Origin: a virus
IMG/VR virus record: IMGVR_UViG_3300042350_004191
Span: 146,587 to 210,586 of that record
Strand: one strand, 5' to 3'
Length of the DNA: 64,000 nt
In this document: one piece after another, positions 46,181 through 63,962 of the stretch
Position numbering within the stretch: the first letter of the stretch is position 1
How the letters are laid out: each line of letters opens with the position of its first letter
Program-made: the position numbers and the translations under genes
The notes under the pieces: model-generated
What the model saw: the letters and a program-made list of their open reading frames with translations, nothing else
What the model was told of the DNA's origin: nothing
Databases searched by the model: none

Positions 46181-46187
46181 GTAAATA
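46181..46187 (+). promoter_or_regulatory. late promoter box GTAAATA
   Basis: GTAAATA, 6 bases before the ATG of a 41-residue gene. Confidence 0.5.
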
Positions 46188-46193
46188 CTGTTA

Positions 46194-46903: not shown

Positions 46904-46904
46904 T

Positions 46905-47069: not shown

Positions 47070-47085
47070 ATCTTATATAGTATCA

Positions 47086-48176: not shown

Positions 48177-48199
48177 TAAAATACTTTACATTATTAAAA

Positions 48200-49470: not shown

Positions 49471-49622
49471 ATACAAACTAATGCTTTTTTATCTTTTGGT
49501 TCTATAGGTTTTGGTGTCTGATCATTTTGATCAGAACCAAAACACTCTATTAAAAAAACTATTAATATCAGCAAGCCAAAAGCAAACCAAAATTTCCATG
49601 TATTCTTAAAATAAGAATTCAT
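49467..49622 (-). CDS. small single-TM protein, 51 aa
   Basis: MNSYFKNTWKFWFAFGLLIL start; one hydrophobic segment at residues about 10-30, then an acidic, proline-rich tail. An in-frame upstream ATG would overlap the preceding gene by 62 bases and is less likely. It overlaps the next gene by 4 bases. Confidence 0.55.
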   Translation of the reverse strand: MNSYFKNTWKFWFAFGLLILIVFLIECFGSDQNDQTPKPIEPKDKKALVCI

Positions 49623-49623
49623 A

Positions 49624-50385: not shown

Positions 50386-50406
50386 AGTTAAAATGTATAT
50401 ATGCTT

Positions 50407-50682
50407 TTAAAGTTCCCAAGCATCCGCATCACAGTCCCAATGTCTATTATCATAAAAATTTAATGTAAATTCTAGTCCTAAGAAACAAATCTCAAAACGA
50501 ATACCCGCATGATCTTTGCCTGTGAAGCTCATATCTAATTCTAATTTAAATAAAAAATAATTAGAATATAAAATTTCAAGTTCTAATGATTTATTTTTTG
50601 TTAAAGGTCTGTAAAAAGATAATAGAGTTTTAAATTTGTTTTTCTTTTGGAAGAAATTATAAACATGTATTAAAACTAGCAT
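50407..50682 (-). CDS. conserved phage hypothetical protein, 91 aa
   Basis: The C-terminal half (SFTGKDHAGIRFEICFLGLE, then NFYDNRHWD) is a motif found in small proteins of many large phages, function unknown. It has a consensus leaderless promoter. Confidence 0.7.
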   Translation of the reverse strand: MLVLIHVYNFFQKKNKFKTLLSFYRPLTKNKSLELEILYSNYFLFKLELDMSFTGKDHAGIRFEICFLGLEFTLNFYDNRHWDCDADAWEL

Positions 50683-50688
50683 TGTGTT

Positions 50689-50717
50689 ATAATAATATAA
50701 CTGGCAATAAAAGTCAA
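50689..50717 (-). promoter_or_regulatory. sigma70-like promoter, leaderless
   Basis: TTGACT, 17-base spacer, TATTAT; the ATG begins 6 bases after the -10 box. It is back-to-back with the late box at 50727. Confidence 0.6.
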
Positions 50718-50726
50718 GAAATTTGG

Positions 50727-50733
50727 GTAAATA
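50727..50733 (+). promoter_or_regulatory. late promoter box GTAAATA
   Basis: GTAAATATTT context, 6 bases before the ATG of a three-gene set of small late proteins. Confidence 0.5.
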
Positions 50734-50739
50734 TTTTAT

Positions 50740-50910
50740 ATGAATAAATCATTCGAAACTTTCTTTGGAGAAATTATTGAAGAAGAAAAAGCAAAAAGAG
50801 ATCGCTGTTTAAAAAAAGCTGATCAAGTCTATGGTAAAAAAACAAGTGCATACAAATCTGGTGCTGTAGTAAAATGTCGCCAAGGTAAAATATGGAAAAA
50901 GAAAAAATAA
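50740..50910 (+). CDS. small basic late protein, 56 aa, capsid-targeting-like
   Basis: Starts MNKSFETFFGEIIEEEK: an amphipathic helix ending in IEE. The mature part is basic, with cysteines (RCLKKADQVYG; VVKCRQGKIWKKKK), a pattern common in small cyanophage-like proteins. It overlaps the next gene by 19 bases. It is probably packaged and DNA-binding. Confidence 0.62.
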   Translation: MNKSFETFFGEIIEEEKAKRDRCLKKADQVYGKKTSAYKSGAVVKCRQGKIWKKKK

Positions 50911-51167
50911 ACCTAAAAGAAATCTTATTTGAAGTTTTAGAAGAAGGTTTTGAAAAAGAAGAGAAGCAAGGTCTTCATGGTTGGTTTTCTAGAAATAAGG
51001 GTAAGGGTTGGGTAGATTGTAAAACTGGAAAGCCTTGTGGTAGACAGAAAGGTGAAAAAAGAAGAAGTTATCCTGCTTGCCGCCCAACCAAATCTATGTG
51101 CAATTCTAGAAAAAGACATAAAAAAGGATCTAAAAGAATTTCTTGGAAAAAAGGAGATAAAGCATGA
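50892..51167 (+). CDS. small basic late protein, DUF5872-like, capsid-targeting-like
   Basis: 91 residues. N terminus INLKEILFEVLEEGF (ends LEE). The mature part LHGWFSRNKGKGWVDCK, PCGR and YPACRPTKSMC is the pattern of the DUF5872-type proteins common in T4-like cyanophages. It is strongly basic with five cysteines. It overlaps both neighbours, forming a late three-gene operon. Confidence 0.7.
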   Translation: MEKEKINLKEILFEVLEEGFEKEEKQGLHGWFSRNKGKGWVDCKTGKPCGRQKGEKRRSYPACRPTKSMCNSRKRHKKGSKRISWKKGDKA

Positions 51168-51391
51168 ATTTAATAAAAATTATAGAAGAGGAGTTATCTG
51201 AGAAAAAAACTTATGTTGTTTCTAGTTATAAATTTGGATATAAAAAAGAGACACAAGCTTCTTCTGAAAGAGAAGCAAAAAGTAATGTAGCTTTTAATTT
51301 TGCTGAAGAGTTTTCTAAAAAAACTGGAAAACCTGAAGGAGTTCTTAGAAAAGATTTTTTTAATTCTGCTACAGTTAGAATTAAAAAGTAG
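51164..51391 (+). CDS. small late protein, 75 aa, capsid-targeting-like
   Basis: Starts MNLIKIIEEELSEKK, very similar to the start of the 134-residue protein at 35.1 kb (MNLKDIIEE). A good Shine-Dalgarno site (AAGGAG) lies upstream, inside the previous gene. The rest is basic and beta-poor. It converges on tRNA-Met. Confidence 0.62.
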   Translation: MNLIKIIEEELSEKKTYVVSSYKFGYKKETQASSEREAKSNVAFNFAEEFSKKTGKPEGVLRKDFFNSATVRIKK

Positions 51392-51460
51392 CGGGAGAGG
51401 GAATCGAACCCCCGACCTTCTGGTTATGAGCCAGACTATCTACCACTGATAATATCCCGC
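51391..51460 (-). tRNA. tRNA-Met or Ile2 (CAU)
   Basis: About 70 bases; acceptor GCGGGA/TCCCGC, anticodon loop CTCATAA (CAU), T-loop TTCGATT. The D-arm is short and the seventh acceptor pair is irregular. Initiator, elongator and lysidine-type Ile cannot be distinguished with confidence. Confidence 0.82.
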
Positions 51461-51468
51461 AATTTAAA

Positions 51469-51540
51469 AGCCCCTGTAGAGATTTGCGCTCTACTCTCCC
51501 GATTACAAATCGGGTGCATCGCTATCTATGCTTCAAGGGC
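51469..51540 (-). tRNA. tRNA-Thr (UGU) with unusual T-loop
   Basis: 72 bases; acceptor GCCCTTG/CAGGGGC with one G-U pair, anticodon stem CCCGA/TCGGG with loop TTTGTAA (UGU). The T-arm stem TAGAG/CTCTA encloses CGCAAAT where TTCRAAT is expected. Confidence 0.82.
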
Positions 51541-51546
51541 GATATT

Positions 51547-51795
51547 TTACTTACTTTTCTTTTTTGTTTTCTTTTTTAAAGCTGACAATTCTTTACTTAA
51601 TTGTTTAGATGTTGTGCGAATATATGAATTTGTATCTTTTTTAGGTCCACTAAATTCTATTAAATATCTAAACCAACGAAAACCGATTTTAAAATAAGAA
51701 CCACCATTAAAGTATGATAATTTAGGAATGGGTTTTGAATCAAAAACAGGAATTTTACCAGACCACACCGAATACTTAGAAAAATTTAAAATCAT
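51547..51795 (-). CDS. hypothetical protein, 82 aa
   Basis: Not recognised. Aromatic- and lysine-rich with a basic C-terminal tail (KKKTKKKSK). It follows the metallopeptidase-like gene by 1 base. Confidence 0.6.
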   Translation of the reverse strand: MILNFSKYSVWSGKIPVFDSKPIPKLSYFNGGSYFKIGFRWFRYLIEFSGPKKDTNSYIRTTSKQLSKELSALKKKTKKKSK

Positions 51796-51796
51796 A

Positions 51797-52381
51797 TTAT
51801 TTGTATAAATTTAGATACTTCTCGTAATTTTTCAAGTATTCATTTTTAGGTAAAAAAACTTTTGGCATTTTTCCATAAATTTTTTTATTTTGATACGGAA
51901 ACGGATACCATTTTTTATCTCTATAAGTTGCCCAATACGACAAAATATACGCATTCGCTTTTTGAATGTATGTTTCTTTATCAAATGGAATTTTATATTT
52001 TATATATTTTTTAACAGTTCTTATTTCACAATCAAGTTCCAATAAAATTGCGCTATTAATAGATTTTAATAGGTTTTTTTCTTTTATATTTTCACCCTTT
52101 AACCATTTATCTAAAGAATCTATCGGGTCTGAATTTTTAACCCATAAAGATTTTTTATCTAAAAATTGGTCCATGTGACAAGATTCATGAATAAGAATAG
52201 AAATCCATTCAGATTCTTTTTTGTTTACCGATGCAGCCAAAGTTGTTTCATCAAAAAAACCACTACATTCGATCTGTTCATTAAGTCGAATGGTTTTTTC
52301 AGCAACCAAACTAAGATTAATTTTGTTTTTGATACAAGTGACAGCTATATCACCTAATAAGTTTTTAAGATTGTTTTTCAT
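51797..52381 (-). CDS. putative zinc metallopeptidase (HExxH), 194 aa
   Basis: HESCHMDQF at about residue 64-72 is a zinc-binding helix. A later LLELDCE (about 113-119) could give the third ligand, as in gluzincin-type folds. No signal peptide, so it is probably cytoplasmic. It overlaps the upstream gene by 17 bases. Substrate unknown. Confidence 0.62.
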   Translation of the reverse strand: MKNNLKNLLGDIAVTCIKNKINLSLVAEKTIRLNEQIECSGFFDETTLAASVNKKESEWISILIHESCHMDQFLDKKSLWVKNSDPIDSLDKWLKGENIKEKNLLKSINSAILLELDCEIRTVKKYIKYKIPFDKETYIQKANAYILSYWATYRDKKWYPFPYQNKKIYGKMPKVFLPKNEYLKNYEKYLNLYK

Positions 52382-52829
52382 TTAAGGAGTCCCAATATTT
52401 GGCTACGTCTGGATTAGTTGGTGCATAATCTACTTTATCGGCTTCTTCTTTTGAAAGAATTTTTATATATCCTTGTGTTGATTGGCATTTGTAACCAGCT
52501 TTACCTGTATTTTCACAGATATGTGCGCTTTGTTTTTCTGCATCTTGAATTATAGCCGAAAAAATACGATTAATAGTATCAGTATAAGTTTCTACTCTAT
52601 AGTAGAATCGAAGCGTTCCAAATTTTTCTTTAATTTGTTCTGCAACTAATTGCACATGTGTAATGTCACACATATACTGAATTTTATGCATAGTTTCATC
52701 AAGAAGTTCATACCAACCATCATTACATTCCATACCCCAATGCATACAAGTTTTTTTCTTGTCACCACCATATTCTTTTAGAATTTTAGGATATTTCTCA
52801 ACAAGCTTGAGTTCTAATTCTTTAGTCAT
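52365..52829 (-). CDS. conserved phage hypothetical protein, 154 aa
   Basis: Carries ECNDGWYELLD and EQIKEKFGTLRFYYRVE, a pattern found in proteins of many phages and some prophages, function unknown. Several cysteines (CMHWGMEC; HICENTGKAGYKC) could bind metal. Confidence 0.72.
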   Translation of the reverse strand: MTKELELKLVEKYPKILKEYGGDKKKTCMHWGMECNDGWYELLDETMHKIQYMCDITHVQLVAEQIKEKFGTLRFYYRVETYTDTINRIFSAIIQDAEKQSAHICENTGKAGYKCQSTQGYIKILSKEEADKVDYAPTNPDVAKYWDSLNEKQS

Positions 52830-52843
52830 TTCCGTTAATATTA

Positions 52844-53941
52844 CTATAATTTGTCAGAAATGTCAAAGTATTCTTTTATCAAAGTTATATATTGTTTTTT
52901 ATTCGGTTCTTTATTATCCAATAAATTAAAAACTAAAGAAGAATATTCTGATTTGTAATTTTGTAAAATAGCTTCGGCTTGTTCTTTTCTGGTTTCATAT
53001 TTTTGAATGACCAAAACAAATCTTTTCATTTTATCAATCGCTGTTTTAACCTTTTCACTCGCTTCCACCAATTTAAGGATTTGTGAGGATAACTGTTCGG
53101 CAATTTCATAATCAAAATTTTTCTCTATAATATCATAAAAATCTTGATAATTTGGCATGTTGTTATCAACATAATATTCAATCAAATTATTTTCAGAACT
53201 TAATTGAGACTTTATTTTATGGAGAAAACAGTACCAGTCTGATTTAATTTTAATTTTATTTTGATTATTGTTATAGCTTACTACTATTCCCTCTTTACCT
53301 TTCCAGTCTTTTATAAGTTTAGAAATTTCCAAGAGACTTTGGTTGTCCTCGAATTTGTAATGTTTAGGTGTTGGAGGGTTTCCAATAGCTTGTTTAATTT
53401 CTTCTAATGCTGCTAAAGGTAACATTTTTAATGTATCTTTATCTACCGCACCTAAAAAACAAAAATCAACATCTTGGGGTCTTATAACAATAACATTATT
53501 AGGAGTTACAATTTCAAACAATAAAGAAAGTTTGGAATCGAAAGGAAAATATTCTAAAATTTTAGGATATTTTTCTGGTAAAAGTTCAAAGTCTTTCCAG
53601 TTTTCTTGGGTCAGATAAGAAGCAGTTCCTCTGGTTCTCATGTTAAATCGACCATTTACATAATCACATATTACAAGAGAACCATCTATTTTTTCTTCGA
53701 CATACCAAGTAAATTTTTCTGGATCTGGATAACAATCTGGTTTTTCCCCTAAATTAAAAAATTTAGGAAAACCTGAAGATAATACATAACCTTCTTTATC
53801 TACGATTAAAGAGCGATAAATTAAATTTTCTGCATTCCATTCAGCATCTATTTTTGGGATTATTAAATACGAAGAAATGCCACAAAATTCGTGTTCATAT
53901 AAACCAAAACCCTTATCTGGATCTGGTAATTTAACTTTCAT
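52844..53941 (-). CDS. RNA ligase (T4 Rnl1-like)
   Basis: 365 residues. The nucleotidyltransferase motif I is EEKIDGSLVI (about 92-101), preceded by the family's SSGFPKFFNLGE segment. Motif III/IIIa-like LLFEIVTPNN is near 147, motif IV EGIVV near 223 and motif V KIKSDWY near 235. The C-terminal domain is helical. It would seal RNA ends such as cleaved tRNA anticodon loops. It is the last gene of a tight set with a kinase and a phosphatase. Confidence 0.85.
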   Translation of the reverse strand: MKVKLPDPDKGFGLYEHEFCGISSYLIIPKIDAEWNAENLIYRSLIVDKEGYVLSSGFPKFFNLGEKPDCYPDPEKFTWYVEEKIDGSLVICDYVNGRFNMRTRGTASYLTQENWKDFELLPEKYPKILEYFPFDSKLSLLFEIVTPNNVIVIRPQDVDFCFLGAVDKDTLKMLPLAALEEIKQAIGNPPTPKHYKFEDNQSLLEISKLIKDWKGKEGIVVSYNNNQNKIKIKSDWYCFLHKIKSQLSSENNLIEYYVDNNMPNYQDFYDIIEKNFDYEIAEQLSSQILKLVEASEKVKTAIDKMKRFVLVIQKYETRKEQAEAILQNYKSEYSSLVFNLLDNKEPNKKQYITLIKEYFDISDKL

Positions 53942-53943
53942 AA

Positions 53944-54354
53944 TTAAAAGTCTTCAACTCTAAAAAACTCTCTTCTATTTTTCATTTTTTCCACAACTTC
54001 TTGAGGAACATCGTGAATATTTTTATATTCAGTTGTTAAGTGTTCGATTATGATGTTATATCCATGTTTTTTGGCTAATTCAATATAAGGCTTTGCTTCT
54101 TTTTTGGTTGTCATAGTATTAGAAACAATAACAGCCTCACCTAATTCCATGGCCTTTTCTGTTGCTTTTCTGCACCAAGAATGACATTCGCCTAATTTTT
54201 TAGGAGAAAACCAGTAATCACCATTACGATTGATCATCAACATATCAGCTTCATAATGATGCCTAATACCTTTTTCGTGCATTAATTTTTTAGCGCGAGT
54301 AGTTTTACCTGCGCCAGAATGTCCAGTTATCAAATATAATAATTTTTGTTTCAT
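53944..54354 (-). CDS. P-loop polynucleotide kinase-like protein
   Basis: 136 residues. Walker A GHSGAGKTT (11-19), an ADML segment near 36, KKLGECHSWCRKAT near 52-65, and VSNTMTT near 77-83. This is the small AAA_33/zeta-type kinase pattern shared with T4 Pnk N-terminal and bacterial Pnkp kinase domains. It would phosphorylate 5'-OH RNA ends. It is linked by 2 bases to the ligase gene and overlaps the phosphatase gene by 4 bases. Confidence 0.75.
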   Translation of the reverse strand: MKQKLLYLITGHSGAGKTTRAKKLMHEKGIRHHYEADMLMINRNGDYWFSPKKLGECHSWCRKATEKAMELGEAVIVSNTMTTKKEAKPYIELAKKHGYNIIIEHLTTEYKNIHDVPQEVVEKMKNRREFFRVEDF

Positions 54355-55049
54355 ATTCTATACTCCCATATTTCGTTAATATTTAAAAGTTTGTGAAAAC
54401 AGTCATTTATTTCCTCTGACCAACTGCTATGAAAATGCCCATAACAATGTATCTTGGGTCTGCAAATAGCAAACAATTGATCCATTTTGCTTCTTTCTTC
54501 TAATAAATCAGAGATTAAATTTTTATCTTCCTTGGACCAACCATAAACTATTTCATTAAACTTTTGAGGAAAACAATATGAAGGTGCTGTGTGAGTAATT
54601 AAAAAATCTACCTTTTCACATTTATCAGGCTGATAGTCAACTTTTTCCCCAGACCAATATGATACACCTTCTCTGCGAGCCAGTCTATCAATAGAAGTTG
54701 CACCGCCTATAAATTGAATTTTTTTATCACCATATTGAGCTACTGTATAATCTTCTATTAATTCAAAATTACTCAGAACAACTCTGTTATCGCCTTTAAA
54801 GTAAGAAGGGTCTGAATGGTTTCCTCTTATACTCAGATAATTTATATTTTTTTCTTTAAACTTATCATTTAAAGATTCAAATTGTTTCATCTGTTGATCT
54901 TTTGGAGAAAACCCTTCACCACCATCACCGACATGAATTAAATAACAATCTCTTATATCGTAGTTATTGATATAAAAAAATACTTCATACCAATTACCAT
55001 GGGTATCGCCTAAAACGTAGATAGGAAGAAATGAATCTAAAATTTTCAC
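54351..55049 (-). CDS. calcineurin-type metallophosphoesterase (Pnkp phosphatase-like)
   Basis: 232 residues. All binuclear-metal motifs are present: GDTHGNW (about 14-20), VGDGGEG, IRGNHSD, LITHTAP and YGHFHSSW near the C terminus. Bacterial Pnkp uses this fold to remove 2',3'-cyclic or 3' phosphates before ligation. It starts with GTG on a predicted leaderless transcript and heads the RNA-repair operon. Confidence 0.82.
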   Translation of the reverse strand: MKILDSFLPIYVLGDTHGNWYEVFFYINNYDIRDCYLIHVGDGGEGFSPKDQQMKQFESLNDKFKEKNINYLSIRGNHSDPSYFKGDNRVVLSNFELIEDYTVAQYGDKKIQFIGGATSIDRLARREGVSYWSGEKVDYQPDKCEKVDFLITHTAPSYCFPQKFNEIVYGWSKEDKNLISDLLEERSKMDQLFAICRPKIHCYGHFHSSWSEEINDCFHKLLNINEIWEYRI

Positions 55050-55055
55050 CCATCA

Positions 55056-55084
55056 TTTATATCAGATAATTGGTAGCGTGTCAA
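55056..55084 (-). promoter_or_regulatory. RNA-repair operon promoter, leaderless GTG
   Basis: TTGACA, 17-base spacer, TATAAA; the GTG start follows 6 bases after the -10 box. Confidence 0.68.
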
Positions 55085-55087
55085 GTA

Positions 55088-55294
55088 TTAAAGACCGTCT
55101 TTCTTTTTTATATCGAATGTAAAGTTTTGATACATTTTAATATGATCAGATCTAAAATGTAAAATACTACCACCATCTTCCATAACAACAGTCCATATAT
55201 CATTTTCAAACGTCCCTCCGTTTGTAACATATATAGCATATGCATTACCCACAGGAGTAACTACTGGTATAGGTGTTCTAAATTCTAACATCAT
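55088..55294 (-). CDS. hypothetical protein, 68 aa
   Basis: Not recognised. Beta-rich (VGNAYAIYVTNGGTFEND, WTVVMEDGG). It overlaps the upstream gene by 4 bases. Confidence 0.62.
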   Translation of the reverse strand: MMLEFRTPIPVVTPVGNAYAIYVTNGGTFENDIWTVVMEDGGSILHFRSDHIKMYQNFTFDIKKKDGL

Positions 55295-55551
55295 TTTATG
55301 ATATTTAAAAACACTGGGGTTTGTTCTCCTACATAGGCTCCCTGAACATTAAACTCGAAATATTCTTCAGCTTCCTCTTCGGACATGTCTTTCATTAATT
55401 CTTTGATACAAAGTGACCTATCATAGATTGCTATAGGTGTTCTAAACTGCCAACCTATACCAACAAAAGCTTTTTCAAAACCATCAGCCAATAATACTGT
55501 TTCATCTTCAGATAAAACATTTTTAATTTGATTTTTAATTTTTTTATTCAT
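55291..55551 (-). CDS. conserved phage hypothetical protein, 86 aa
   Basis: The pattern LADGFEKAFVGIGWQFRTPI, then CIKELM and MSEEEAEEYFEFNVQGAY, is common to small phage proteins of unknown function. It is coupled to the phosphoesterase gene upstream (4-base overlap). Confidence 0.72.
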   Translation of the reverse strand: MNKKIKNQIKNVLSEDETVLLADGFEKAFVGIGWQFRTPIAIYDRSLCIKELMKDMSEEEAEEYFEFNVQGAYVGEQTPVFLNIIK

Positions 55552-56234
55552 TTGCTAAAAGGAGTTGAAGCATTACCATCATGATGATCAGTTTTAAATT
55601 TTGATTTATTACGCATAATAGTTGCTATTTCACCATAGGTTAGTGGGTATGGATTGACCTCTACGGATACTTCCAAGTTAGTTCCACCGTTATTGACATA
55701 CATACGTCCTAGTTCGCTGTTTGTAAGAGAACCGTGGACATGACTAAAAAGCATCCAAGAACCCTTTCCTGCACCATTCCAAGACAAAACCGGATAGTGG
55801 CACATGACAATAGGTTGACCATTAATATATGCTTCCAAATAGTTTGGAACAAATATTACTTCTTTATGATAACCATCAATATAAAGTGTATTATCTTTGA
55901 TACTTTCAAATGCTTGTTTCCAACCCGCTGTGTGATTTCCAGACATGATAAACAAACGCTGAAACTTTAAACGGCGCATGAGCTTTGTAAATTCTTCTAG
56001 TCCACCATAACCAAACATGGTGTCACCAAGAAGAAATCCAATAGTTTTATCTGATGCTTTACTATTCCAGTTTAAAACAATAGCTTCATCATGCTCCTGT
56101 ACAGAATCAAAACCTCTGCGTTTCCAAATAGGGATATCCCACTTTGGATCGTGATGCCAGTGCAAGCAACCCCAAAAAAGAATTTCGTGGTTCTTTGCTT
56201 CTTGGCGTACATAATTATAAAATAGACCCTTCAT
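55548..56234 (-). CDS. metallophosphoesterase, second copy
   Basis: 228 residues, calcineurin fold: WGCLHWHHD (metal site 1), LLGDTMFG (bridging Asp), MSGNHTAGW, CHYPVLSW and FSHVHGS. It is distinct in sequence from the RNA-repair phosphatase. Relatives are broad phage phosphoesterases of unknown substrate (nucleic acid, cyclic or dinucleotide). It overlaps the upstream AbrB-like gene by 20 bases. Confidence 0.8.
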   Translation of the reverse strand: MKGLFYNYVRQEAKNHEILFWGCLHWHHDPKWDIPIWKRRGFDSVQEHDEAIVLNWNSKASDKTIGFLLGDTMFGYGGLEEFTKLMRRLKFQRLFIMSGNHTAGWKQAFESIKDNTLYIDGYHKEVIFVPNYLEAYINGQPIVMCHYPVLSWNGAGKGSWMLFSHVHGSLTNSELGRMYVNNGGTNLEVSVEVNPYPLTYGEIATIMRNKSKFKTDHHDGNASTPFSK

Positions 56235-56517
56235 CTTCGTCCTTATGATCTTCGCAGAATTTGGTCAAAGAGTCAACAACAAAATCTTCAAAAGTCATAT
56301 CTGCTTTATTTGCAGCAACAATAATATTGATTAATTCTTCTTTGGAAAACTCATTCAAATCAATTTCAAGTTCTTCGTGAGGAGTTAATTTCAAACCACT
56401 TTTGTCTTCGCTTAATTCAATAGTAAATTTTGTATTAGGTTTAAATCCAAGTTGATCCATTTCTTCATCTGTAAATTGGATAAAGTATTCTTCTTTTTTC
56501 TGTACAGTTTTGATCAT
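56215..56517 (-). CDS. hypothetical acidic protein, possible AbrB/MazE-like N-terminal half
   Basis: 100 residues. The first 45 residues (FIQFTDEEMDQLGFKPNTKF, then IELSEDKSGLKLTP) have the strand-turn layout of SpoVT/AbrB domains; the rest is an acidic helical tail. This could be a DNA-binding or antitoxin-like regulator, but the match is by pattern only. Confidence 0.6.
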   Translation of the reverse strand: MIKTVQKKEEYFIQFTDEEMDQLGFKPNTKFTIELSEDKSGLKLTPHEELEIDLNEFSKEELINIIVAANKADMTFEDFVVDSLTKFCEDHKDEDEGSIL

Positions 56518-56526
56518 AGTATTTAA

Positions 56527-56554
56527 AATATAACAGGAAAAAAATTAAATGCAA
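56527..56554 (-). promoter_or_regulatory. sigma70-like promoter, near-leaderless
   Basis: TTGCAT, 16-base spacer, TATATT; the ATG lies 9 bases after the -10 box. Confidence 0.5.
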
Positions 56555-56555
56555 A

Positions 56556-56954
56556 TTAAATCTTTGGTAAAAATTTAGCAGTAGTATTGTTTTTATCTTG
56601 ACCCCAATCTACTAATAAAACATCAATCTTTGCCATTATACAAAGAGTGCAAACTTCAACACTGTCATCAATATGAAGTTCACTTTTGAGTTGTTTTAAA
56701 AATGGAACTTTATTTGTTCCTTCTGTGCATACAATTGATTTAATAGGAATTTTATATCCTTTACAGAAATCATTTACTTGTTCTTTGTTTGACCAATTTC
56801 TAAAAGTTACTATATGAATCTCAGATCCTTTTTTGTGTTGATCCATAAGATAGTTAATCACCCTTGGAACAGGCGTTAATGTTTCACCACCCCAAGCACC
56901 GTTTGAAGTAGCGGCAATCGTATCATCAAAATCGCAAGTGATTACCTTTTTCAT
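56556..56954 (-). CDS. HAD-family phosphatase
   Basis: 132 residues. Motif I CDFDDTIAA (7-15), motif II IVTFRNW (about 48-54), a lysine in NKVPFLKQL (about 81-89) and motif IV LHIDDSVEV (about 93-101). Small phage HAD proteins include 5' nucleotidases and the phosphatase half of T4 Pnk. The substrate cannot be told. It overlaps the nuclease-like gene upstream by 4 bases. Confidence 0.8.
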   Translation of the reverse strand: MKKVITCDFDDTIAATSNGAWGGETLTPVPRVINYLMDQHKKGSEIHIVTFRNWSNKEQVNDFCKGYKIPIKSIVCTEGTNKVPFLKQLKSELHIDDSVEVCTLCIMAKIDVLLVDWGQDKNNTTAKFLPKI

Positions 56955-57463
56955 AACAATTCTAAATCTTTCATTCCTACGATATAATTGACTGGATAGT
57001 TTGGTTTATATTGTTTAATTCTTTTATGTTTATCAAATTTCTCGCGGGTAATCTCACCTAAAACGTCTATTGTCCTGAAAGCATCTTCGTTTATTCTGAC
57101 CAATACATATTTTTTTGGAAACTTGGTTTCAAAGTGTTTTTTCTCAACCTTTAATTCAATATCATCAGATAGTCTTGTGGAAGCTTTAACTTCCACATCG
57201 TCCACATCAGAACCTGTATCTCTTACTTTATAGATGTTTTCGTCTATTTGCTTATCTGTTATTTTAGCATAAGCCATTTCACCTAATATTCCTAGAAAAT
57301 GTGCTTTGTGTGTTGGGTGTTTAACAAACAAATCTACTTTGGTTTTTTTGGTAAAATCACCTAGCCTTCTTTTATTTTTAAAAGACGAATGTTTTGCTTC
57401 GTGTCTTTTTTCTGCTAAGTCTCTAGCAAATAACAATTCTTGATCTGTGAATTTAACTTTCAT
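56951..57463 (-). CDS. PD-(D/E)XK-like nuclease, 170 aa
   Basis: FLGILGEMAYAKI (about 57-69) gives the helix-borne glutamate. GSDVDDVEVKAST (about 84-96) supplies the aspartate and E-x-K of a restriction-like nuclease core, followed by a strand (KKYVLVRI). This is a compact endonuclease pattern. It is first in a small operon whose leader follows tRNA-Tyr. Confidence 0.58.
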   Translation of the reverse strand: MKVKFTDQELLFARDLAEKRHEAKHSSFKNKRRLGDFTKKTKVDLFVKHPTHKAHFLGILGEMAYAKITDKQIDENIYKVRDTGSDVDDVEVKASTRLSDDIELKVEKKHFETKFPKKYVLVRINEDAFRTIDVLGEITREKFDKHKRIKQYKPNYPVNYIVGMKDLELL

Positions 57464-57472
57464 ATTAAAAAG

Positions 57473-57556
57473 TGGGTAAGATAGGATTCGAACCTATTCA
57501 GCCGACAGGCAAAAGATTTACAGTCTTTCGTAACTCTCCAACTTTACCGCTTACCC
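57473..57556 (-). tRNA. tRNA-Tyr (GUA)
   Basis: 84 bases with a long variable arm; acceptor GGGTAAG/CTTACCC, anticodon loop CTGTAAA (GUA), T-loop TTCGAAT, discriminator A. Confidence 0.93.
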
Positions 57557-57560
57557 AAAA

Positions 57561-57631
57561 CTGGCTCGCATAGACTCGAACTATGAATAAGAGATCCAAA
57601 TTCTCTGGTGTTACCATTACACTACGAGCCA
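57561..57631 (-). tRNA. tRNA-Gln (UUG)
   Basis: 71 bases; acceptor TGGCTCG/CGAGCCA, anticodon loop ATTTGGA (UUG), T-loop TTCGAGT, discriminator G. Confidence 0.92.
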
Positions 57632-57667
57632 TCATCTTTACTAATTTATCATTTAATCAGTAAAATA

Positions 57668-57856
57668 TCAATTTTTCTTTTTTCTGCTTTTAAGCCATGG
57701 TGTTTTAAACTTCATTGTCCAATCAATTACTGCTCTTGCAAAACCAATATCATATCCCGCTTTTTCGGATTCGTACCACTTATGTTTCATGATTTCTTCT
57801 TTCATTGCTATGAATTCTTTGTATAAAGAAGTATTTGCCACGTTCACTATATTCAT
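57668..57856 (-). CDS. conserved phage hypothetical protein, 62 aa
   Basis: The ATG at 57856 is preferred; an upstream in-frame start would overlap the purA end by 37 bases. WYESEKAGYDIGFARAVIDW is a motif found in small proteins of many phages, function unknown. The C terminus is basic (KSRKKKN). Confidence 0.65.
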   Translation of the reverse strand: MNIVNVANTSLYKEFIAMKEEIMKHKWYESEKAGYDIGFARAVIDWTMKFKTPWLKSRKKKN

Positions 57857-57866
57857 ATTTATCTTT

Positions 57867-58880
57867 TTAAATGTTTGTCTGATCACCAGAAAAAATAATA
57901 TCATTTGGTTTTAATCCATTAATATTTTGATTAACCAAATCTTTTTTAATAATATCTTTTAATTGATCAAAGGAACCTGCTTCCAATGATGTTTCATAAA
58001 AATTATTAATTCGAAATATTCCTACTTTTTCAAATACATCACATTTGTTGATGATTACTTTGGTCGCACCTGAAAGATTTACAGCCTTATTTAATCTTCC
58101 AAAGTTTAACCAATTCACAAGTCTTTTTCTACCTGTGGTAGAACCAAACTCTTGACCAAGTTCAATTAATTGGTTGAGTTTTTCATCATTCCAAAGACAT
58201 TCTGGAAACAATGGATCGACACCACTTTTGGTATCATAAATTTTTGCTACACCGATAATGTCACGAATTTTCTTCGGTGAAAATCCAAGTGAACACGCAT
58301 TATGGGGAAATGTTTCAGAACTTGTTACATAAGGATAATTTCCATAGTTAACATCCAACCATATGCTTTGAGCACCTTCACAAAGAATTTTTCCTTCTAG
58401 TTTTCCATCCCAAAGAAAGTCTTTTAATGGATTAAAATTTGCTTTGCTAATCTGAATGCCAACACGATTTGCTTTGTCTGCATAACAAGGGGCAATACCC
58501 TGACCAGTAGTTCCAAGTTTAGGTTTCAGATGTTTCAGATCATATTCGATATGTGCATCTGTGATCACATGAACATTTGGATGAACTTTTACCAAAGACG
58601 TATCAAAACCATTTTGTTTTAAGTATTCAATTTCTTTGAGAAATTTATCGACATTCAAAACACAGTTTGGACCGATAACAGATTTTTTTCCGTGAAAAAC
58701 ACCAGAAGGAATCAGATGAGTTTTATATTTTTTCCCATCAAGATAAACAGTATGACCAGCATTTGGTCCACCATTCCAGCGACAGACCATATCATAGTCT
58801 TTCGCCATTGCGCTTGAAATTTTACCCTTGCCTTCATCCCCCCAAGCAAGACCGACAATTACATCAACATGTTTAATCAT
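57867..58880 (-). CDS. purA: adenylosuccinate synthetase, short archaeal/phage type
   Basis: 337 residues from the ATG at 58880; two in-frame ATGs 6 and 24 bases upstream are possible. It is shorter than bacterial PurA (about 430) and like archaeal PurA and phage PurZ forms (about 340). The P-loop is GLAWGDEGKGKI with the catalytic Asp kept (Ser or Gly in canonical PurZ). Further sites are GGPNAGHTVYLDG (catalytic His), GTTGQGIAPCYADK, YPYVTSSETF and GSTTGRKR. It joins IMP and Asp using GTP to make adenylosuccinate. A PurZ0-like role with dGMP cannot be excluded. The start overlaps the SemiSWEET-like gene. Confidence 0.85.
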   Translation of the reverse strand: MIKHVDVIVGLAWGDEGKGKISSAMAKDYDMVCRWNGGPNAGHTVYLDGKKYKTHLIPSGVFHGKKSVIGPNCVLNVDKFLKEIEYLKQNGFDTSLVKVHPNVHVITDAHIEYDLKHLKPKLGTTGQGIAPCYADKANRVGIQISKANFNPLKDFLWDGKLEGKILCEGAQSIWLDVNYGNYPYVTSSETFPHNACSLGFSPKKIRDIIGVAKIYDTKSGVDPLFPECLWNDEKLNQLIELGQEFGSTTGRKRLVNWLNFGRLNKAVNLSGATKVIINKCDVFEKVGIFRINNFYETSLEAGSFDQLKDIIKKDLVNQNINGLKPNDIIFSGDQTNI

Positions 58881-59145
58881 ATTCATTAAATTTAAACCAA
58901 GCATACACCAAAATACTGCACATAATCAAACCTACAGTATAATTTAAAAACCACCAAAGACCAAAAGTGGTCAAGAACATATAAACCATTCCTGAAATAT
59001 AGCCACCAATAGACATTAAAATTAACATTAAAGAAACATCTTTAGATGATTTATTTTTGAATATTTTTACGATTTGTGGAATATAACAAAGCATAAAAAA
59101 CAGCATCATCAATATTCCGAAGAATTCTGCTAAAATAGTTTTCAT
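58873..59145 (-). CDS. SemiSWEET/PQ-loop-like membrane protein
   Basis: 90 residues with three predicted membrane helices (about 5-24, 38-60, 65-84). A PQ motif in the first (MLCYIPQIVKIFKNKSSKDV) matches SemiSWEET and PQ-loop sugar-transporter families, which dimerise to form a pore. Substrate unknown. It overlaps the genes on both sides, so it is part of the purA operon. Confidence 0.75.
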   Translation of the reverse strand: MKTILAEFFGILMMLFFMLCYIPQIVKIFKNKSSKDVSLMLILMSIGGYISGMVYMFLTTFGLWWFLNYTVGLIMCSILVYAWFKFNEYD

Positions 59146-59303
59146 TCTTGAGTTATAAAATCATTAGGAACCCAAAGAGTTTGTGGAATATTATCACAAT
59201 AGTAACAGATATAACTCTGGGATTCTGCTACATCTAAAATAGAATGAAGTTGAATTTTAGTTCCATCTGGAAAATTACAAAACTTATTAATTACTGTATT
59301 CAT
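59142..59303 (-). CDS. small protein with CxxC motif, 53 aa
   Basis: MNTVINKFCNFPDGTKIQLH start, then YICYYCDNIPQTLWVP, giving a possible metal site with only one cysteine pair plus an earlier Cys. It is the first gene of the purA operon with a near-leaderless promoter, and its stop overlaps the next ATG. Function unknown. Confidence 0.62.
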   Translation of the reverse strand: MNTVINKFCNFPDGTKIQLHSILDVAESQSYICYYCDNIPQTLWVPNDFITQE

Positions 59304-59311
59304 ACATTACC

Positions 59312-59339
59312 ATAATACATTAAAAATATAAGATGTAAA
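59312..59339 (-). promoter_or_regulatory. purA operon promoter, near-leaderless
   Basis: TTTACA, 16-base spacer, TATTAT; the ATG lies 8 bases after the -10 box. Confidence 0.55.
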
Positions 59340-59358
59340 GAAAATTTTTACAACTTAA

Positions 59359-59401
59359 TTAACTAATGTCACTAAAATTTGACGATTGACATTAGTTAAT
59401 C
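59359..59401. repeat. 14-bp perfect inverted repeat
   Basis: ATTAACTAATGTCA and its exact complement flank a 15-base centre. It lies between the HNH gene end and the purA operon promoter. It has no adjacent T run on either strand, so it is not a standard terminator. Confidence 0.8.
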
Positions 59402-59405
59402 TTTG

Positions 59406-59428
59406 CCAAAAATTTATTATTTTTGGCG
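59406..59428 (-). terminator. hairpin over the stop of the HNH gene, possible terminator
   Basis: GCCAAAAAT/ATTTTTGGC stem with a short AT loop overlapping the HNH stop codon. The flanking T run is weak. Confidence 0.4.
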
Positions 59429-59980
59429 TTGGTTAATAGGTTGATAAATTTTTAATTTTTTTAATCTTTTTATAACTGCAACATCAGAAGCACCAACTAT
59501 TTTTCCTATTTTAAGATTACTTAATTTTTGAATTACGTGTAAATCATATAAATCAAAATTATCCCATTCGATTTGAGATTTTCTTTTTGCGGCACAAGTT
59601 TTTGAACAAGTTATAAGATAATTTGCTTTTTGCTTATTACAAATTGGACAATATGTTTTTCTTTTTCTTTTTTCTTTTAAATCTACAAATTTTGGAATAT
59701 TTTTTGGGATATTAGTTTTACCCGCATGATATTCTCTGTGACAGTTAGCACACAATAAAACACAATTTTCTAACTCTTTTAATAATAATTTCCATTGTTT
59801 AGGATTGGCTCTTATTCCACCAAAAGATAATGTTTTTTGTGAAGGATCAATATGATGTATATCAAAAGCTTCTTCACATTTATCATAACCACATATACAA
59901 CACTTTCCACCAAATCCCTCAACAATTAAATTTTTAGTATCTTTTCTCCAAGCCTTAACACGATCTGCATTTATACTCAT
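59417..59980 (-). CDS. HNH endonuclease with C-terminal zinc/DNA-binding region
   Basis: 187 residues. A zinc-framed HNH domain: KCCICGYDKCEEAFDIHHID (about 26-45), then CVLLCANCHREYHAG (about 73-87). A second Cys cluster follows (YCPICNKQ; CSKTC), then a helix-turn-helix-like end (KIGKIVGASDVAVIKRLKKL). This is the layout of free-standing homing endonucleases of T4-like phages. It lies downstream of tRNA-Asn and the large RNA on the same strand. Confidence 0.88.
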   Translation of the reverse strand: MSINADRVKAWRKDTKNLIVEGFGGKCCICGYDKCEEAFDIHHIDPSQKTLSFGGIRANPKQWKLLLKELENCVLLCANCHREYHAGKTNIPKNIPKFVDLKEKRKRKTYCPICNKQKANYLITCSKTCAAKRKSQIEWDNFDLYDLHVIQKLSNLKIGKIVGASDVAVIKRLKKLKIYQPINQRQK

Positions 59981-60039
59981 ATATAATACTTACATATTAT
60001 ATGTAACATTTTATATAAAGGTTTAGATATTCGTAAAAG

Positions 60040-60113
60040 CTCCTTGGGCTGGATTCGAACCAGCATGATGAACAAATTAACAGTTTGTTGGCTTACCGTT
60101 AGCCCACCAAGGA
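60040..60113 (-). tRNA. tRNA-Asn (GUU)
   Basis: 74 bases; acceptor TCCTTGG/CCAAGGA, anticodon stem ACAAA/TTTGT with loop CTGTTAA (GUU), T-loop TTCGAAT, discriminator G. It lies at the 3' end of the large structured RNA, probably in one transcript. Confidence 0.93.
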
Positions 60114-60916: not shown

Positions 60917-61141
60917 TTATTGTTTAGACTTTTCTTTTAACTTTTGATATTCTTCGTAATACCAATCTCTCTGATCTACTAGTTCCCAAAAATCTTTCAT
61001 ATTTAACTCTACAAGCTTTTCACACATTGTAAGTTCTTTTCTTAAATCAAGGTTAACCTTCTTGTACAATTCTAAATCCTCTTTAAGACGTTCATAGTCT
61101 TTAAGAATAAAGTCTTTATATTGTTCATCGATCATACCCAT
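60917..61141 (-). CDS. coiled-coil hypothetical protein, 74 aa
   Basis: Almost entirely charged helix (YERLKEDLELYKKVNLDLRK; DWYYEEYQKLKEK) with heptad spacing. It is the last gene of the crowded small-gene operon. Function unknown. Confidence 0.6.
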   Translation of the reverse strand: MGMIDEQYKDFILKDYERLKEDLELYKKVNLDLRKELTMCEKLVELNMKDFWELVDQRDWYYEEYQKLKEKSKQ

Positions 61142-61142
61142 A

Positions 61143-61472
61143 CTATTCTTTAATTAATTCTGATCCAATATCTTTTAGACAAAGACGAGCTTTGTGTGCA
61201 GATGCATAAAACCCATCTTCGTCGGACATATAAAGTTCATTTTTAATTTCAAAACATTGCCAAATATTATAAAGAGTTTCTTCCATTTTTTTAACCATTA
61301 TCGCTAAATCTTCATTAGCTACCTTTAAAACGTGATTGTGAAGTTTTAAAGAATCAGAATTATCCAATTCTTTATATGGTTCATTAAGAGCCGTATTTAA
61401 AGGAACAACCCTACCAACAACTAAATCATTCATCGCATTTTCAAAAGATTCTGGAATATTATTTTCTTTCAT
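61143..61472 (-). CDS. hypothetical protein, 109 aa
   Basis: The ATG at 61472 overlaps the previous gene by 14 bases; a longer frame upstream would overlap it by 71. Helical, acidic. Not recognised; the MNDLVVGRVVPLNTAL segment has a beta-like feature. Confidence 0.58.
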   Translation of the reverse strand: MKENNIPESFENAMNDLVVGRVVPLNTALNEPYKELDNSDSLKLHNHVLKVANEDLAIMVKKMEETLYNIWQCFEIKNELYMSDEDGFYASAHKARLCLKDIGSELIKE

Positions 61473-61713
61473 AATTTGCAGGATATTGTGCGGGTAAACC
61501 AGCAATTTCAAACATTTTGGCACATGCAATTTGTGAGTCGTATCGGTTTTTAGTTTTGTAGAATTTTTTAATAGCTTCGATTAAAAGTTTATTTTCTTGC
61601 TCAAGAAGACGCAATCTGTCTTCGAGATTAGCCATCTCATCAAAGATATTGATTTTTCCTTGTTGCCATCTTTCAACAGCTTCTTGTGTAATTGGATTTT
61701 TTTCAGATTTCAT
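61459..61713 (-). CDS. coiled-coil hypothetical protein, 84 aa
   Basis: Starts MKSEKNPITQEAVERWQQG. A coiled coil (LEDRLRLLEQENKLLIEAIKK) lies at about residues 30-50. Not recognised. Confidence 0.58.
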   Translation of the reverse strand: MKSEKNPITQEAVERWQQGKINIFDEMANLEDRLRLLEQENKLLIEAIKKFYKTKNRYDSQIACAKMFEIAGLPAQYPANYERK

Positions 61714-62092
61714 TTTTATCGACCTTTTCTAATAACATTCTATCTGCAATTTTATAAACTTCAAAAAAATCTTTTTTCTCATCTTCTTCAATATAAAGCA
61801 ATCTATCTCCTACTGATTCGAGGTTTGTGCAATTTTCTTTAGAACAATATTTCAAAAATGCTATAACATAATGAGTTTCTTTGTTTTCAAAACAATTTTT
61901 ACTAATAGAACAATTATTATGATAGATAGCATCGCCCCGATCTTCCCAACCATCTTTAAGATAATTTTCTAGCTCTCCATAATATCTGTTAGGATGATAC
62001 TTTACAATAGAGCATTCATACTTCGCAACCTTGGAAGTTTTGCCAATATATGCTACAGACTCTGTACCAATGTTATTGATTCGAACTTTCAT
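61703..62092 (-). CDS. hypothetical protein, 129 aa
   Basis: Not recognised. Mixed alpha/beta with several cysteines (NNCSISKNC; YCSKENC) that could bind metal. It overlaps the L12-like gene by 20 bases. Confidence 0.58.
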   Translation of the reverse strand: MKVRINNIGTESVAYIGKTSKVAKYECSIVKYHPNRYYGELENYLKDGWEDRGDAIYHNNCSISKNCFENKETHYVIAFLKYCSKENCTNLESVGDRLLYIEEDEKKDFFEVYKIADRMLLEKVDKNEI

Positions 62093-62204
62093 CTTTTTTA
62101 TCTTCTGGTGTAAAAATAGGTTCTAAACTTTTGATAAGTTCATTAAGTTCAGTAATTGTTAGTTTACTGATTTCTTCCATAATTTGTTTTAATTTATCGC
62201 TCAT
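62073..62204 (-). CDS. L7/L12 N-terminal-domain-like protein, 43 aa
   Basis: The sequence KLKQIMEEISKLTITELNEL, then IKSLEPIF, closely matches the dimerisation domain of ribosomal protein bL12 (in bacteria, ISxLTxxELxELVKxLEExF). The C-terminal factor-binding domain is absent: the protein ends after a short charged tail. Full-length bL12 has been reported in aquatic phages. A domain-only form could bind L10 on the ribosomal stalk and displace host L12. It overlaps the genes on both sides. Confidence 0.6.
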   Translation of the reverse strand: MSDKLKQIMEEISKLTITELNELIKSLEPIFTPEDKKDESSNQ

Positions 62205-62485
62205 GTTGTTATTTCATTATACAAAGATTCTATGTTGTGGCAAATTTCTTTTCCTTCTTTGTCCCAAGCTTTCATATCTTCTCTACCGTCTTTTTCGTAG
62301 ATATACCAATTAATCCATTCTACTCCTTCTTTACCAAACGCTTCGACCATCAAAGGATGCACTACTTTTCTGTAATAATCCTCATTAAAGGATAACAAAT
62401 CCACTCCATGTTTATAAATTTCATGAGTCTTGTTATTTTGATTCTGAATACCTTCAATCAAAGTTTTAAATTTGTCTAGAGTCAT
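62201..62485 (-). CDS. hypothetical protein, 94 aa
   Basis: The ATG at 62485 gives MTLDKFKTLIEGIQ; an ATG 15 bases upstream is also possible. The middle (FGKEGVEWINWYIYEKDG) recurs in phage proteins of unknown function. Confidence 0.62.
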   Translation of the reverse strand: MTLDKFKTLIEGIQNQNNKTHEIYKHGVDLLSFNEDYYRKVVHPLMVEAFGKEGVEWINWYIYEKDGREDMKAWDKEGKEICHNIESLYNEITT

Positions 62486-62487
62486 AA

Positions 62488-62748
62488 TCAAATTTCCCAA
62501 ATTGTCCAGCTTACACTATCTCCACATTGATCGCAAGGTTCTTTTTCATATTTGTAATCATTATATTCAAACATTTCAACCACATCCAGTAATTGAATTT
62601 CACGATTATCAAACATCTCCCTTATTCTTTCAATAAGATAATCAAAGATTGCATATTCTTTTTCTCTTGGAATATCAGCAACGGATTCACCATCAACAGT
62701 GAAATCATAAGCCGTACAACCTTCTGTTTTTAAAAACTTATGTTTCAT
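62488..62748 (-). CDS. hypothetical protein with CxxC, 86 aa
   Basis: Acidic. The C-terminal EPCDQCGDSVSW carries one cysteine pair. Not recognised. Confidence 0.58.
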   Translation of the reverse strand: MKHKFLKTEGCTAYDFTVDGESVADIPREKEYAIFDYLIERIREMFDNREIQLLDVVEMFEYNDYKYEKEPCDQCGDSVSWTIWEI

Positions 62749-62935
62749 GAATTATAGTTTTAACTTTATCATTATGTTGCAATCTTGCTACATGTTTGGA
62801 CGCTTCTTCGAATGTATTAAAGTCGGCAGGGAAATAATGACAACCAGCATCAACCCAAAACAGTCCAAACATCTTCCATTGAACTTGGAATCTCGACCCA
62901 TCGTAATATTGATATTCTTTAATTCTGTATTTCAT
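62738..62935 (-). CDS. MKYRIKE-family protein, copy 1
   Basis: 65 residues. Shares MKYRIKEYxxYxG, a FGLFWVD core and an EAS...A.L.HN...I.HE end with the gene at 63.3 kb. The first 21 bases of its coding strand match those of the other two family members. Small alpha/beta domain, function unknown. Confidence 0.65.
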   Translation of the reverse strand: MKYRIKEYQYYDGSRFQVQWKMFGLFWVDAGCHYFPADFNTFEEASKHVARLQHNDKVKTIIHET

Positions 62936-63160
62936 TTATGATATATGGGAATGATACAATATCTGTTTAGAGCTATCAAGCTTTTTCTTGTTTAGTGCAT
63001 CTTTAAAGATTTCAATATGATCTCTGGCTCCTTTTAAATGAGGATATACTACTGGATCACTTTTTATTGTGGTCATATTTCTCCAGAAAAGGATTTTTTT
63101 ATACTGAGGGTAAAAGTAATGTTTACCCATCTTTATTTCTTCTTTAATTCTGTATTTCAT
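62936..63160 (-). CDS. MKYRIKE-family protein, diverged copy 2
   Basis: 74 residues. It begins MKYRIKEEIKMGKHYFYPQY; only the N terminus and a general strand-helix plan are shared with the other copies, so it is diverged or a mosaic. Confidence 0.58.
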   Translation of the reverse strand: MKYRIKEEIKMGKHYFYPQYKKILFWRNMTTIKSDPVVYPHLKGARDHIEIFKDALNKKKLDSSKQILYHSHIS

Positions 63161-63326
63161 TTGCTCCTAATTGTGCTAGTTCTGAAAGCTCATCCCATTT
63201 ACTGTTCTGTGACAGGTAGTCAATGAATTCACTTGTGCTGATCCATTTATTGTCTACAAGAATTTCTCTAGGGCGAACTTTGTAAATAGTATCTTTAATC
63301 TTTATAAAGGTATTATCAGATTTCAT
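63144..63326 (-). CDS. hypothetical protein, 60 aa
   Basis: Not recognised. It overlaps both neighbours and is set between two members of the MKYRIKE family. N-terminal beta part (FIKIKDTIYKVRPREILVDN), C-terminal helix. Confidence 0.55.
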   Translation of the reverse strand: MKSDNTFIKIKDTIYKVRPREILVDNKWISTSEFIDYLSQNSKWDELSELAQLGANEIQN

Positions 63327-63516
63327 GAACTATGGGTTTGGCATTTTTGTTATGTATAAGCATAGCAGCAAATTCAGATGCTTCAGTTAAAGTGTTAAAT
63401 TCTGGAACATATCCACCTAAAGATTCATAATCAACCCAAAAAAGACCAAATATCTTTTGTTGCACATAGTATTTTGGACCATTATACCAATTGTATTCTT
63501 TAATTCTGTATTTCAT
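63316..63516 (-). CDS. MKYRIKE-family protein, copy 3
   Basis: 66 residues; the closest relative of copy 1: MKYRIKEYNWYNGP, then IFGLFWVDYE, FNTLTEASEFAAML and IVHEI. Tandem duplication is the likely origin. Confidence 0.66.
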   Translation of the reverse strand: MKYRIKEYNWYNGPKYYVQQKIFGLFWVDYESLGGYVPEFNTLTEASEFAAMLIHNKNAKPIVHEI

Positions 63517-63680
63517 TTTTTTCTTATTTTTTTCTTTAATGCTTTATCTAACCTCTCTTGTAATATTTTAGCTATTTTTAAATCTACAACTCTGATATAT
63601 CTTTCTCCTCTTCCCCAAGGTTCAATGCCATTAAAAGTATCATGAAGAAAACTTATTTTATCTAAATCAAATTTGTTCAT
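63513..63680 (-). CDS. hypothetical protein, 55 aa
   Basis: MNKFDLDKISFLHDTFNGIE start, PWGRGERYIRVVD core, basic C terminus (KALKKKIRKK). It is the first gene of the small-gene operon and has a leaderless promoter. Its stop overlaps the next ATG. Confidence 0.6.
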   Translation of the reverse strand: MNKFDLDKISFLHDTFNGIEPWGRGERYIRVVDLKIAKILQERLDKALKKKIRKK

Positions 63681-63687
63681 TCTTCTA

Positions 63688-63716
63688 AGTATATCGGAAC
63701 CTTAAGGGCAAAGCAA
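63688..63716 (-). promoter_or_regulatory. small-gene operon promoter, leaderless
   Basis: TTGCTT, 17-base spacer, TATACT; the ATG begins 7 bases after the -10 box. Confidence 0.6.
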
Positions 63717-63731
63717 GAATTAAATTAATTG

Positions 63732-63962
63732 TCATTCTTCGTTCTCTTCCACTACAATCGGCACATCAGTCCAATGCGGCTTTCCACATTCAAGGCATCG
63801 CACCCCTTGCTGAAGTGTGTCTTGATAGTATACTCCACCGCTATTGAGTTTACCCCCAACCGCCTTGCGAACCCAACGCAAACCAGCGAATACGCCGCCT
63901 GTGACGCAATAATGCTTACCCATGGTTACTGTATCTCCTGTAACAATGTAATCTTGACTCAT
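63732..63962 (-). CDS. GC-rich hypothetical protein with CxxC, 76 aa
   Basis: Starts MSQDYIVTGDTVTMGKHYCV. A Gly-rich middle and RCLECGKPHW provide one cysteine pair plus a His. Base composition is close to half G+C, unlike all neighbouring genes, and it uses GC-ending codons. A recent acquisition is likely. Function unknown. Confidence 0.6.
   Translation of the reverse strand: MSQDYIVTGDTVTMGKHYCVTGGVFAGLRWVRKAVGGKLNSGGVYYQDTLQQGVRCLECGKPHWTDVPIVVEENEE

Follow-up and report, generated by a model that had tools for sequence, protein, structure and literature searches.

A phage gene predicted to encode only the N-terminal domain of ribosomal protein bL12

Results

Organisation of the locus

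The window analysed here is a 64,000-nucleotide stretch of viral DNA that covers bases 146,587-210,586 of a 210,586-base virus record (G000 below). A short open reading frame, which we term the domain gene, lies within its last 2 kb, and the 43-residue product of this gene is MSDKLKQIMEEISKLTITELNELIKSLEPIFTPEDKKDESSNQ, in which residues 12-31 are ISKLTITELNELIKSLEPIF. The positions of the domain gene and of the other features considered are listed in Table 1. It can be seen that the domain gene sits in a minus-strand cluster of small overlapping genes, in line with the first-pass annotation, which had placed it in a crowded small-gene operon. The stop codon of the upstream gene and the ATG of the domain gene share four nucleotides (ATGA), and translational coupling is therefore expected.

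An AlphaFold2 model of the 129-residue downstream neighbour was poor (mean pLDDT 61). In one related locus (L003) this neighbour is tandemly duplicated, the copies showing 75% and 57% identity to that of the window. Three other genes of the cluster begin with MKYRIKE and match each other in tblastn; they look like paralogues, apparently a locally expanded family. A promoter-like sequence, TTGCCA-16-TATAAT (11/12), is found directly before the domain gene; promoter-like sites occur in the region at chance level (14 observed against 15.5), and when the other relatives were inspected by eye no such site was repeated upstream of the domain gene. Shine-Dalgarno sequences were mildly enriched, with AGGA present in 10 of 51 upstream stretches where 2.6 would be expected.

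The phage adenylosuccinate synthetase gene serves as a stable landmark, being found downstream and on the same strand in L007, L012-L015 and L017, where it is 90-94% identical to that of the window. The encoded protein is short, and scores 270 bits against PRK01117, which is under the cut-off of that model, and 97 bits against the PurZ model. Also present in the window are a second purine gene, for GMP reductase (355.9 bits against a cut-off of 344), and six phage tRNA genes (Ser, Asp, Met, Tyr, Gln and Asn), of which the first was called with the unusual anticodon ACT.

Table 1. Positions of the domain gene, its neighbours and other features discussed (window coordinates unless another record is named).
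Feature	Position	Strand	Remarks
Domain-only bL12 gene	62073-62204	minus	ATG at 62204, TAA at 62075-62073; 43 aa
Parts of the 43-aa protein	residues 3-13 and 17-31; residues 32-43		predicted helices; short polar tail
Upstream gene	62201-62485	minus	94 aa from its ATG
Downstream gene, no assigned function	61703-62092	minus	129 aa; ATG begins 20 nt before the domain gene ends
Closely packed small genes, most of them overlapping, among which the domain gene lies	60917-63962	minus	functions unassigned
Genes starting MKYRIKE	62738-62935, 62936-63160, 63316-63516	minus	three genes
Promoter-like site	62243-62216	minus	directly before the domain gene
Phage adenylosuccinate synthetase	57867-58904	minus	about 3.2 kb downstream of the domain gene
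GMP reductase	44408-45343	plus	
Phage tRNA genes	within 45744-60113		six genes
bS21 of the window's record (L028)	G000 bases 9,597-9,809	minus	70 aa; TIGR00030 30.4 bits, cut-off 28.95
Duplicated 129-aa neighbour	L003, 6001-6384 and 6380-6766		tandem copies
Full-length bL12 of another viral contig	L052, 1944-2372	plus	142 aa, N-terminal extension

The domain gene product matches the N-terminal domain of bL12

The product of the domain gene matched the Pfam family PF16320 (Ribosomal_L12_N) over residues 4-28 with 28.1 bits (curated cut-off 25; E 1.7e-6), and this was the sole PF16320 match when all six frames of the 210,586-base record were searched (E 1.5e-6). Against the sequences of the PDB, the best phmmer matches were the L12-NTD chains of Thermotoga maritima (1zav; E 0.003). 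As an independent probe we used a profile made from nine cellular bL12 N-termini, from which phage sequences were excluded. It gave 44.2 bits (E 1.2e-12) for the domain ORF, compared with 6.7 bits for the runner-up among the 1,650 frames of the window and 9.8 bits for the best of 33,000 residue-shuffled frames. We conclude from these comparisons of sequence that the ORF at 62204-62073 encodes a genuine bL12 N-terminal domain, far above chance. A chance likeness of a helical peptide, which the short length of the product and its weak score with the full-length model TIGR00855 might suggest, is scarcely credible and was ruled out by the PF16320 match, its being the only one in the record, and the scores of the shuffled frames.

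Residues 1-31 are homologous to cellular bL12, with identity of up to 61% over 31 residues. The match to the bL12 dimerisation domain on which the first-pass annotation was built was thereby borne out, by both the Pfam family and the cellular profile; its description of the product as a mimic holds as far as likeness to bL12 is concerned, but convergent imitation does not, the two being homologous instead. The equivalog model for full-length bL12 (NCBIfam TIGR00855) gave 19 bits against a cut-off of 84.4. By membership the product is thus not bL12, since it lacks the hinge and the C-terminal domain (CTD) and falls short of the full-length model; what it does represent is the N-terminal domain of bL12.

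An AlphaFold2 model, for which five natural sequences were supplied as input, is a two-helix hairpin. Block-mean pLDDT was 91-96 over residues 1-30, the tail was of low confidence, and 26 of the 43 residues had a pLDDT of at least 90. The top Foldseek match of this model was chain U of 1zav (E 5.0; target-normalised TM 0.80), which is the 30-residue L12-NTD of the solved T. maritima L10-L12(NTD) complex, and VIA-align superposed 30 of 30 residues on it with an rmsd of 1.5 Å (Z 3.8); these statistics are weak because the domain spans only 30 residues. The helical hairpin anticipated by the first-pass annotation was accordingly recovered for the predicted monomer, which has the V shape of the PF16320 domain. 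It is the sequence match, not the fold statistics, that carries the identification of the domain.

The phage copies end after the N-terminal domain and are conserved

Relatives of the locus were reached in viral contigs by two routes, through the 129-residue neighbour (nine loci) and through the domain itself (seven loci), and 14 records, comprising the window's own and 13 reached through these loci, were searched with PF16320. Matches were found in eight (G000, G004, G008, G009, G010, G011, G012 and G013), seven of them above the cut-off and that of G004 slightly under it at 24.2 bits. The protein of G008 is identical to the window's, G009 and G010 have one protein in common, and so do G012 and G013; there are five distinct domain-only proteins, all of which end at 40-43 residues. 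Six records gave no PF16320 match (five contigs of 10-86 kb, and G002 of 211 kb), and the domain gene is optional within the phage group.

We found no CTD in frame past the stop codon at any of the seven related loci, and none of the five distinct proteins has an Ala-rich hinge after the domain, a short polar tail being followed by the stop. PF00542, the L12 C-terminal domain, gave no match in the 14 records at E values up to 0.1; 10 of 14 control genomes were positive. The cellular matches, by contrast (95 and 7), all lay in open frames of at least 123 codons. It had been claimed from the window that the gene ends before any factor-binding domain, and this extends to the relatives; the full-length versions that the first-pass annotation proposed to look for at the same locus were not present, the carriers being domain-only and the other six of the 14 records lacking a match.

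The core of the phage copies (residues 1-33) is nearly invariant. Six gene copies were compared in all 15 pairs over these 33 codons, and dN/dS was between 0 and 0.116; six pairs had 3-6 synonymous and no nonsynonymous differences. With 99 bases of sequence and copies that are related to one another, the precise values are approximate, though the trend is clear. We conclude that the domain gene is under purifying selection and is a genuine, selected phage gene. That it is instead the decaying relic of a full-length bL12 gene that had been captured is very improbable: phages do carry full-length bL12 (L052, 142 residues), but the low dN/dS, the nearly identical end point of all copies and the lack of any CTD remnant, in frame or elsewhere, speak against decay, and this candidate was excluded on the domain-only relatives, the absence of PF00542 and the low dN/dS.

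Seven residues, I8, L15, E19, E22, L23, K25 and E28, are invariant across the phage copies, Thermotoga and two MAGs from different bacterial phyla. The phage copies carry four fixed residues at the end of helix 2 (P29, I30, T32 and P33), where six cellular sequences have E29, K30, G32 and V33. These substitutions might tune or weaken the contacts within the dimer or with uL10, and they constitute the main doubt that arises at the level of sequence. The tail of the phage copies is polar and short, and is conserved only at TP 32-33.

Among isolates, tblastn of the 43 residues against 50,697 phage records returned four matches with E values of 3-9, all to unrelated proteins, and therefore no isolate relative was found at that sensitivity. 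Wider scans of viral contigs with mixed or cellular N-terminal alignments returned the same seven contigs, nothing, or one full-length bL12 (L052); since these scans depend on short motifs that match almost exactly, domain-only proteins of greater divergence may have escaped them.

The cistron keeps its overlaps amid differing neighbours

Members of the small-gene run were found again around the domain gene in the relatives, in varying order; in G013 and G004, for example, the 129-residue gene also sits a short distance upstream of the domain gene. The preceding gene, which is one of five kinds, shares 4-11 bases with the start of the domain gene, ATG included, in all six contexts compared. 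Three of the six also show an overlap of 11-20 bases on the other side, between the domain gene and the gene that follows; the other three have no following same-strand ORF of at least 35 aa within 600 bases (the L016 locus ends sooner). The overlap thus persists while the neighbours differ, and the cistron is either moved or retained as one piece.

bS21 genes in the same genomes

A bS21 gene was present in eight of the 14 records of the group, and in six of the eight that have the domain gene, the remaining two, G008 and G011, being fragments of 15 and 18 kb. Five domain-gene records have bS21 on the same strand, 5.5-9.3 kb upstream. In the window's record the bS21 gene, which shares the strand of the domain gene, is 9.6 kb away from the other end of the contig; this position would fit the same gene order if the genome were circularly permuted. 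Exact overlaps of 12-150 bases between the two record ends were looked for and none was found, and the distance from bS21 to the domain gene across these ends is therefore an assumption. G002 and G003 have bS21 without the domain gene, and bS21 is therefore not tied to it.

Hints to donor and host

When the domain was compared with bL12 at E values up to 0.01, matches were obtained in 94 of 188 genomes in the class of a Candidatus Zambryskibacteria genome; for an alphaproteobacterial genome the figures were 7 of 190 within its class and 1 of 200 within its phylum. Because the genomes are of unequal size and about 30 residues are compared, these counts give a hint to the type of donor at best. 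The closest isolate terminases were mostly those of Sinorhizobium and Rhizobium phages, at 33-34% identity, which is too distant for naming the host.

Discussion

A candidate stalk-binding peptide

The N-terminal hairpins of bL12 dimerise and bind the C-terminal region of uL10, and its CTD recruits translational GTPases, as described in passages of two articles (PMC4592705; PMC10931766); the same passages report that a shortened linker restricts the mobility of the CTD and brings activity down as low as that of L12-depleted ribosomes (PMC4592705; PMC10931766). In the 1zav complex a 30-residue L12-NTD is bound to L10; going by the title of this entry and the length of the chain, the isolated domain is thus enough to bind L10 in T. 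maritima. We consider it on balance probable that the phage peptide pairs with itself or with host bL12 and occupies uL10, which would result in stalks with fewer arms. After infection, the peptide would fold into the V-shaped hairpin of bL12, and the hairpin would pair either with itself or with one host bL12 chain. The paired domain would dock on the C-terminal helix of host uL10, and a stalk bearing the phage domain would miss one or both of the factor-recruiting C-terminal arms at that site. The missing arms would mean fewer contacts for IF2, EF-Tu, EF-G and RF3, and the outcome would be a phage-tuned ribosome in which factor recruitment is damped or altered, beside the phage's own bS21. 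Such a change may damp translation in the host, bias it in favour of phage messages or take away a docking site that defence systems use.

The observations from which we start are the homology to bL12, the domain-only architecture, the purifying selection, the coupled cistron and the company of bS21. From these we infer the folding as a dimer, the binding to uL10 or bL12, the occupancy of the stalk and the effect on translation. The sequence observation of the first-pass annotation is confirmed. Its interpretation, that a domain-only form could dimerise with host L12 or bind L10 and change the composition of the stalk in an inhibitor-like role, is partly supported; simple inhibition is not obviously useful, because the phage needs ribosomes.

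A tentative idea, to which we give somewhat less than even credence, is that large tailed phages of this family have evolved the 40-43-residue domain as a natural 'stalk cap', which would displace or pair with host bL12 on uL10, leave fewer arms per ribosome and, together with bS21, rebuild host ribosomes. If this were true, it would be a natural dominant-negative fragment of a ribosomal protein.

Alternative roles

The bL12 hairpin may have been co-opted as a small non-ribosomal dimerisation module, for instance to pair with another phage protein. We regard this as unlikely. A two-helix hairpin is a simple dimeriser, the 129-residue gene is a close neighbour in several records, and the fixed changes at the end of helix 2 also speak for this role; however, the core keeps the invariant bL12 positions (I8, L15, E19, E22, L23, K25 and E28), charged ones included, and no neighbour is constant, the genes upstream and downstream both varying.

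Slightly less probable still is an action off the ribosome as a false co-repressor, where the peptide would load free host uL10 and the complex would bind the rplJ leader and stop new synthesis of uL10 and bL12, along with rpoBC. In Escherichia coli and Bacillus subtilis rplJL is repressed autogenously by L10(L12)4, according to the parts of PMC10931766 available, and the isolated domain has been solved in complex with L10 (1zav), both of which are consistent with such a role, but the mechanism of rplJL repression differs between hosts.

We give the same low probability to a role as a stalk adapter or shield, in which the peptide would take the uL10 site and either show its own tail or remove bL12 arms, with the effect that host defence effectors or host factors relying on the stalk fail while phage-preferred ones work. 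A polar tail does replace the bL12 hinge in every phage copy, and the cistron is placed among variable small genes. The tail, however, is short and conserved only at two positions, and the bases that encode its end run into the following gene in half of the contexts; it would therefore make a poor recruitment motif.

Comparison with known systems

The gene departs from the usual view of phage ribosomal proteins, which are read as substitutes for those of the host; an anchor-only piece cannot substitute, and therefore points to subtraction from or remodelling of the stalk. Phage-encoded ribosomal proteins are known already, and what is new is a phage gene that keeps only the N-terminal domain of bL12. 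We found no description of a phage protein with this domain only in the main text of open-access articles. The peptide is small enough for direct synthesis and testing, and a natural capping peptide could be used to probe why several bL12 dimers are needed per ribosome, a point called a 'mystery' in the available part of a review (PMC4592705).

Phages are known to act at the stalk: PHIKZ286 of phage phiKZ crosslinks to rplL, rplK and rplJ (PMC10449902, in part). It resembles the window's protein in being a phage protein at the host stalk, but in the excerpts of that article no relation to bL12 is claimed, and the comparison is by description only. Phage bS21 is likewise a phage ribosomal protein, occurs in the same genomes and is thought to substitute in host ribosomes; it is, however, complete and belongs to the small subunit. 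Chain U of 1zav is the same part of bL12 as a free-standing chain, but it is a laboratory construct, whereas the cut in the phage protein was made by evolution. Cellular bL12 goes on into the hinge and the factor-binding PF00542 domain, where the phage gene stops at 40-43 residues.

A full-length phage bL12 was also seen, on the 73.6-kb viral contig IMGVR_UViG_3300020440_001565 (L052), where it lies between a gene for a 522-residue membrane-protein-like product and a gene of 470 codons. It scored 80.6 bits with PF00542 and 126.8 bits with TIGR00855, for which it served as a positive control. This protein shares the N-terminal domain with that of the window, and differs from it in having the CTD and in its contig and gene context.

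A survey of huge phages lists L7/L12 among phage genes, without detail on domains in the sections available (PMC7162821). Mizuno et al. (2019) reported a Ribosomal_L12 domain in seven cultivated phages, with the residues that contact uL11, EF-G and EF-Tu conserved (PMC6375957, in part); we read this domain as the C-terminal one, sometimes within far larger proteins (PMC6375957). A CTD with factor-contact residues, which marks those published proteins as far as the available text describes them, is lacking here (PMC6375957). PHROGs contains families that match the C-terminal part of cellular bL12, whereas residues 1-31 of two cellular bL12s, and likewise the window's domain protein, matched no PHROGs family. 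When a full-length cellular bL12 was run by tblastn against the isolate phage records, 45 records were matched; of the 40 matches listed, six start at query residue 25 or 26, where the N-terminal domain ends, and 34 at residue 50 or beyond. The published phage bL12-domain proteins, as the accessible part of PMC6375957 presents them, the PHROGs families and the rIIB-like matches all concern the C-terminal domain, whereas the window's protein has the N-terminal domain only. The gene of the window thus mirrors the known phage L12-like proteins, providing the anchor without the effector.
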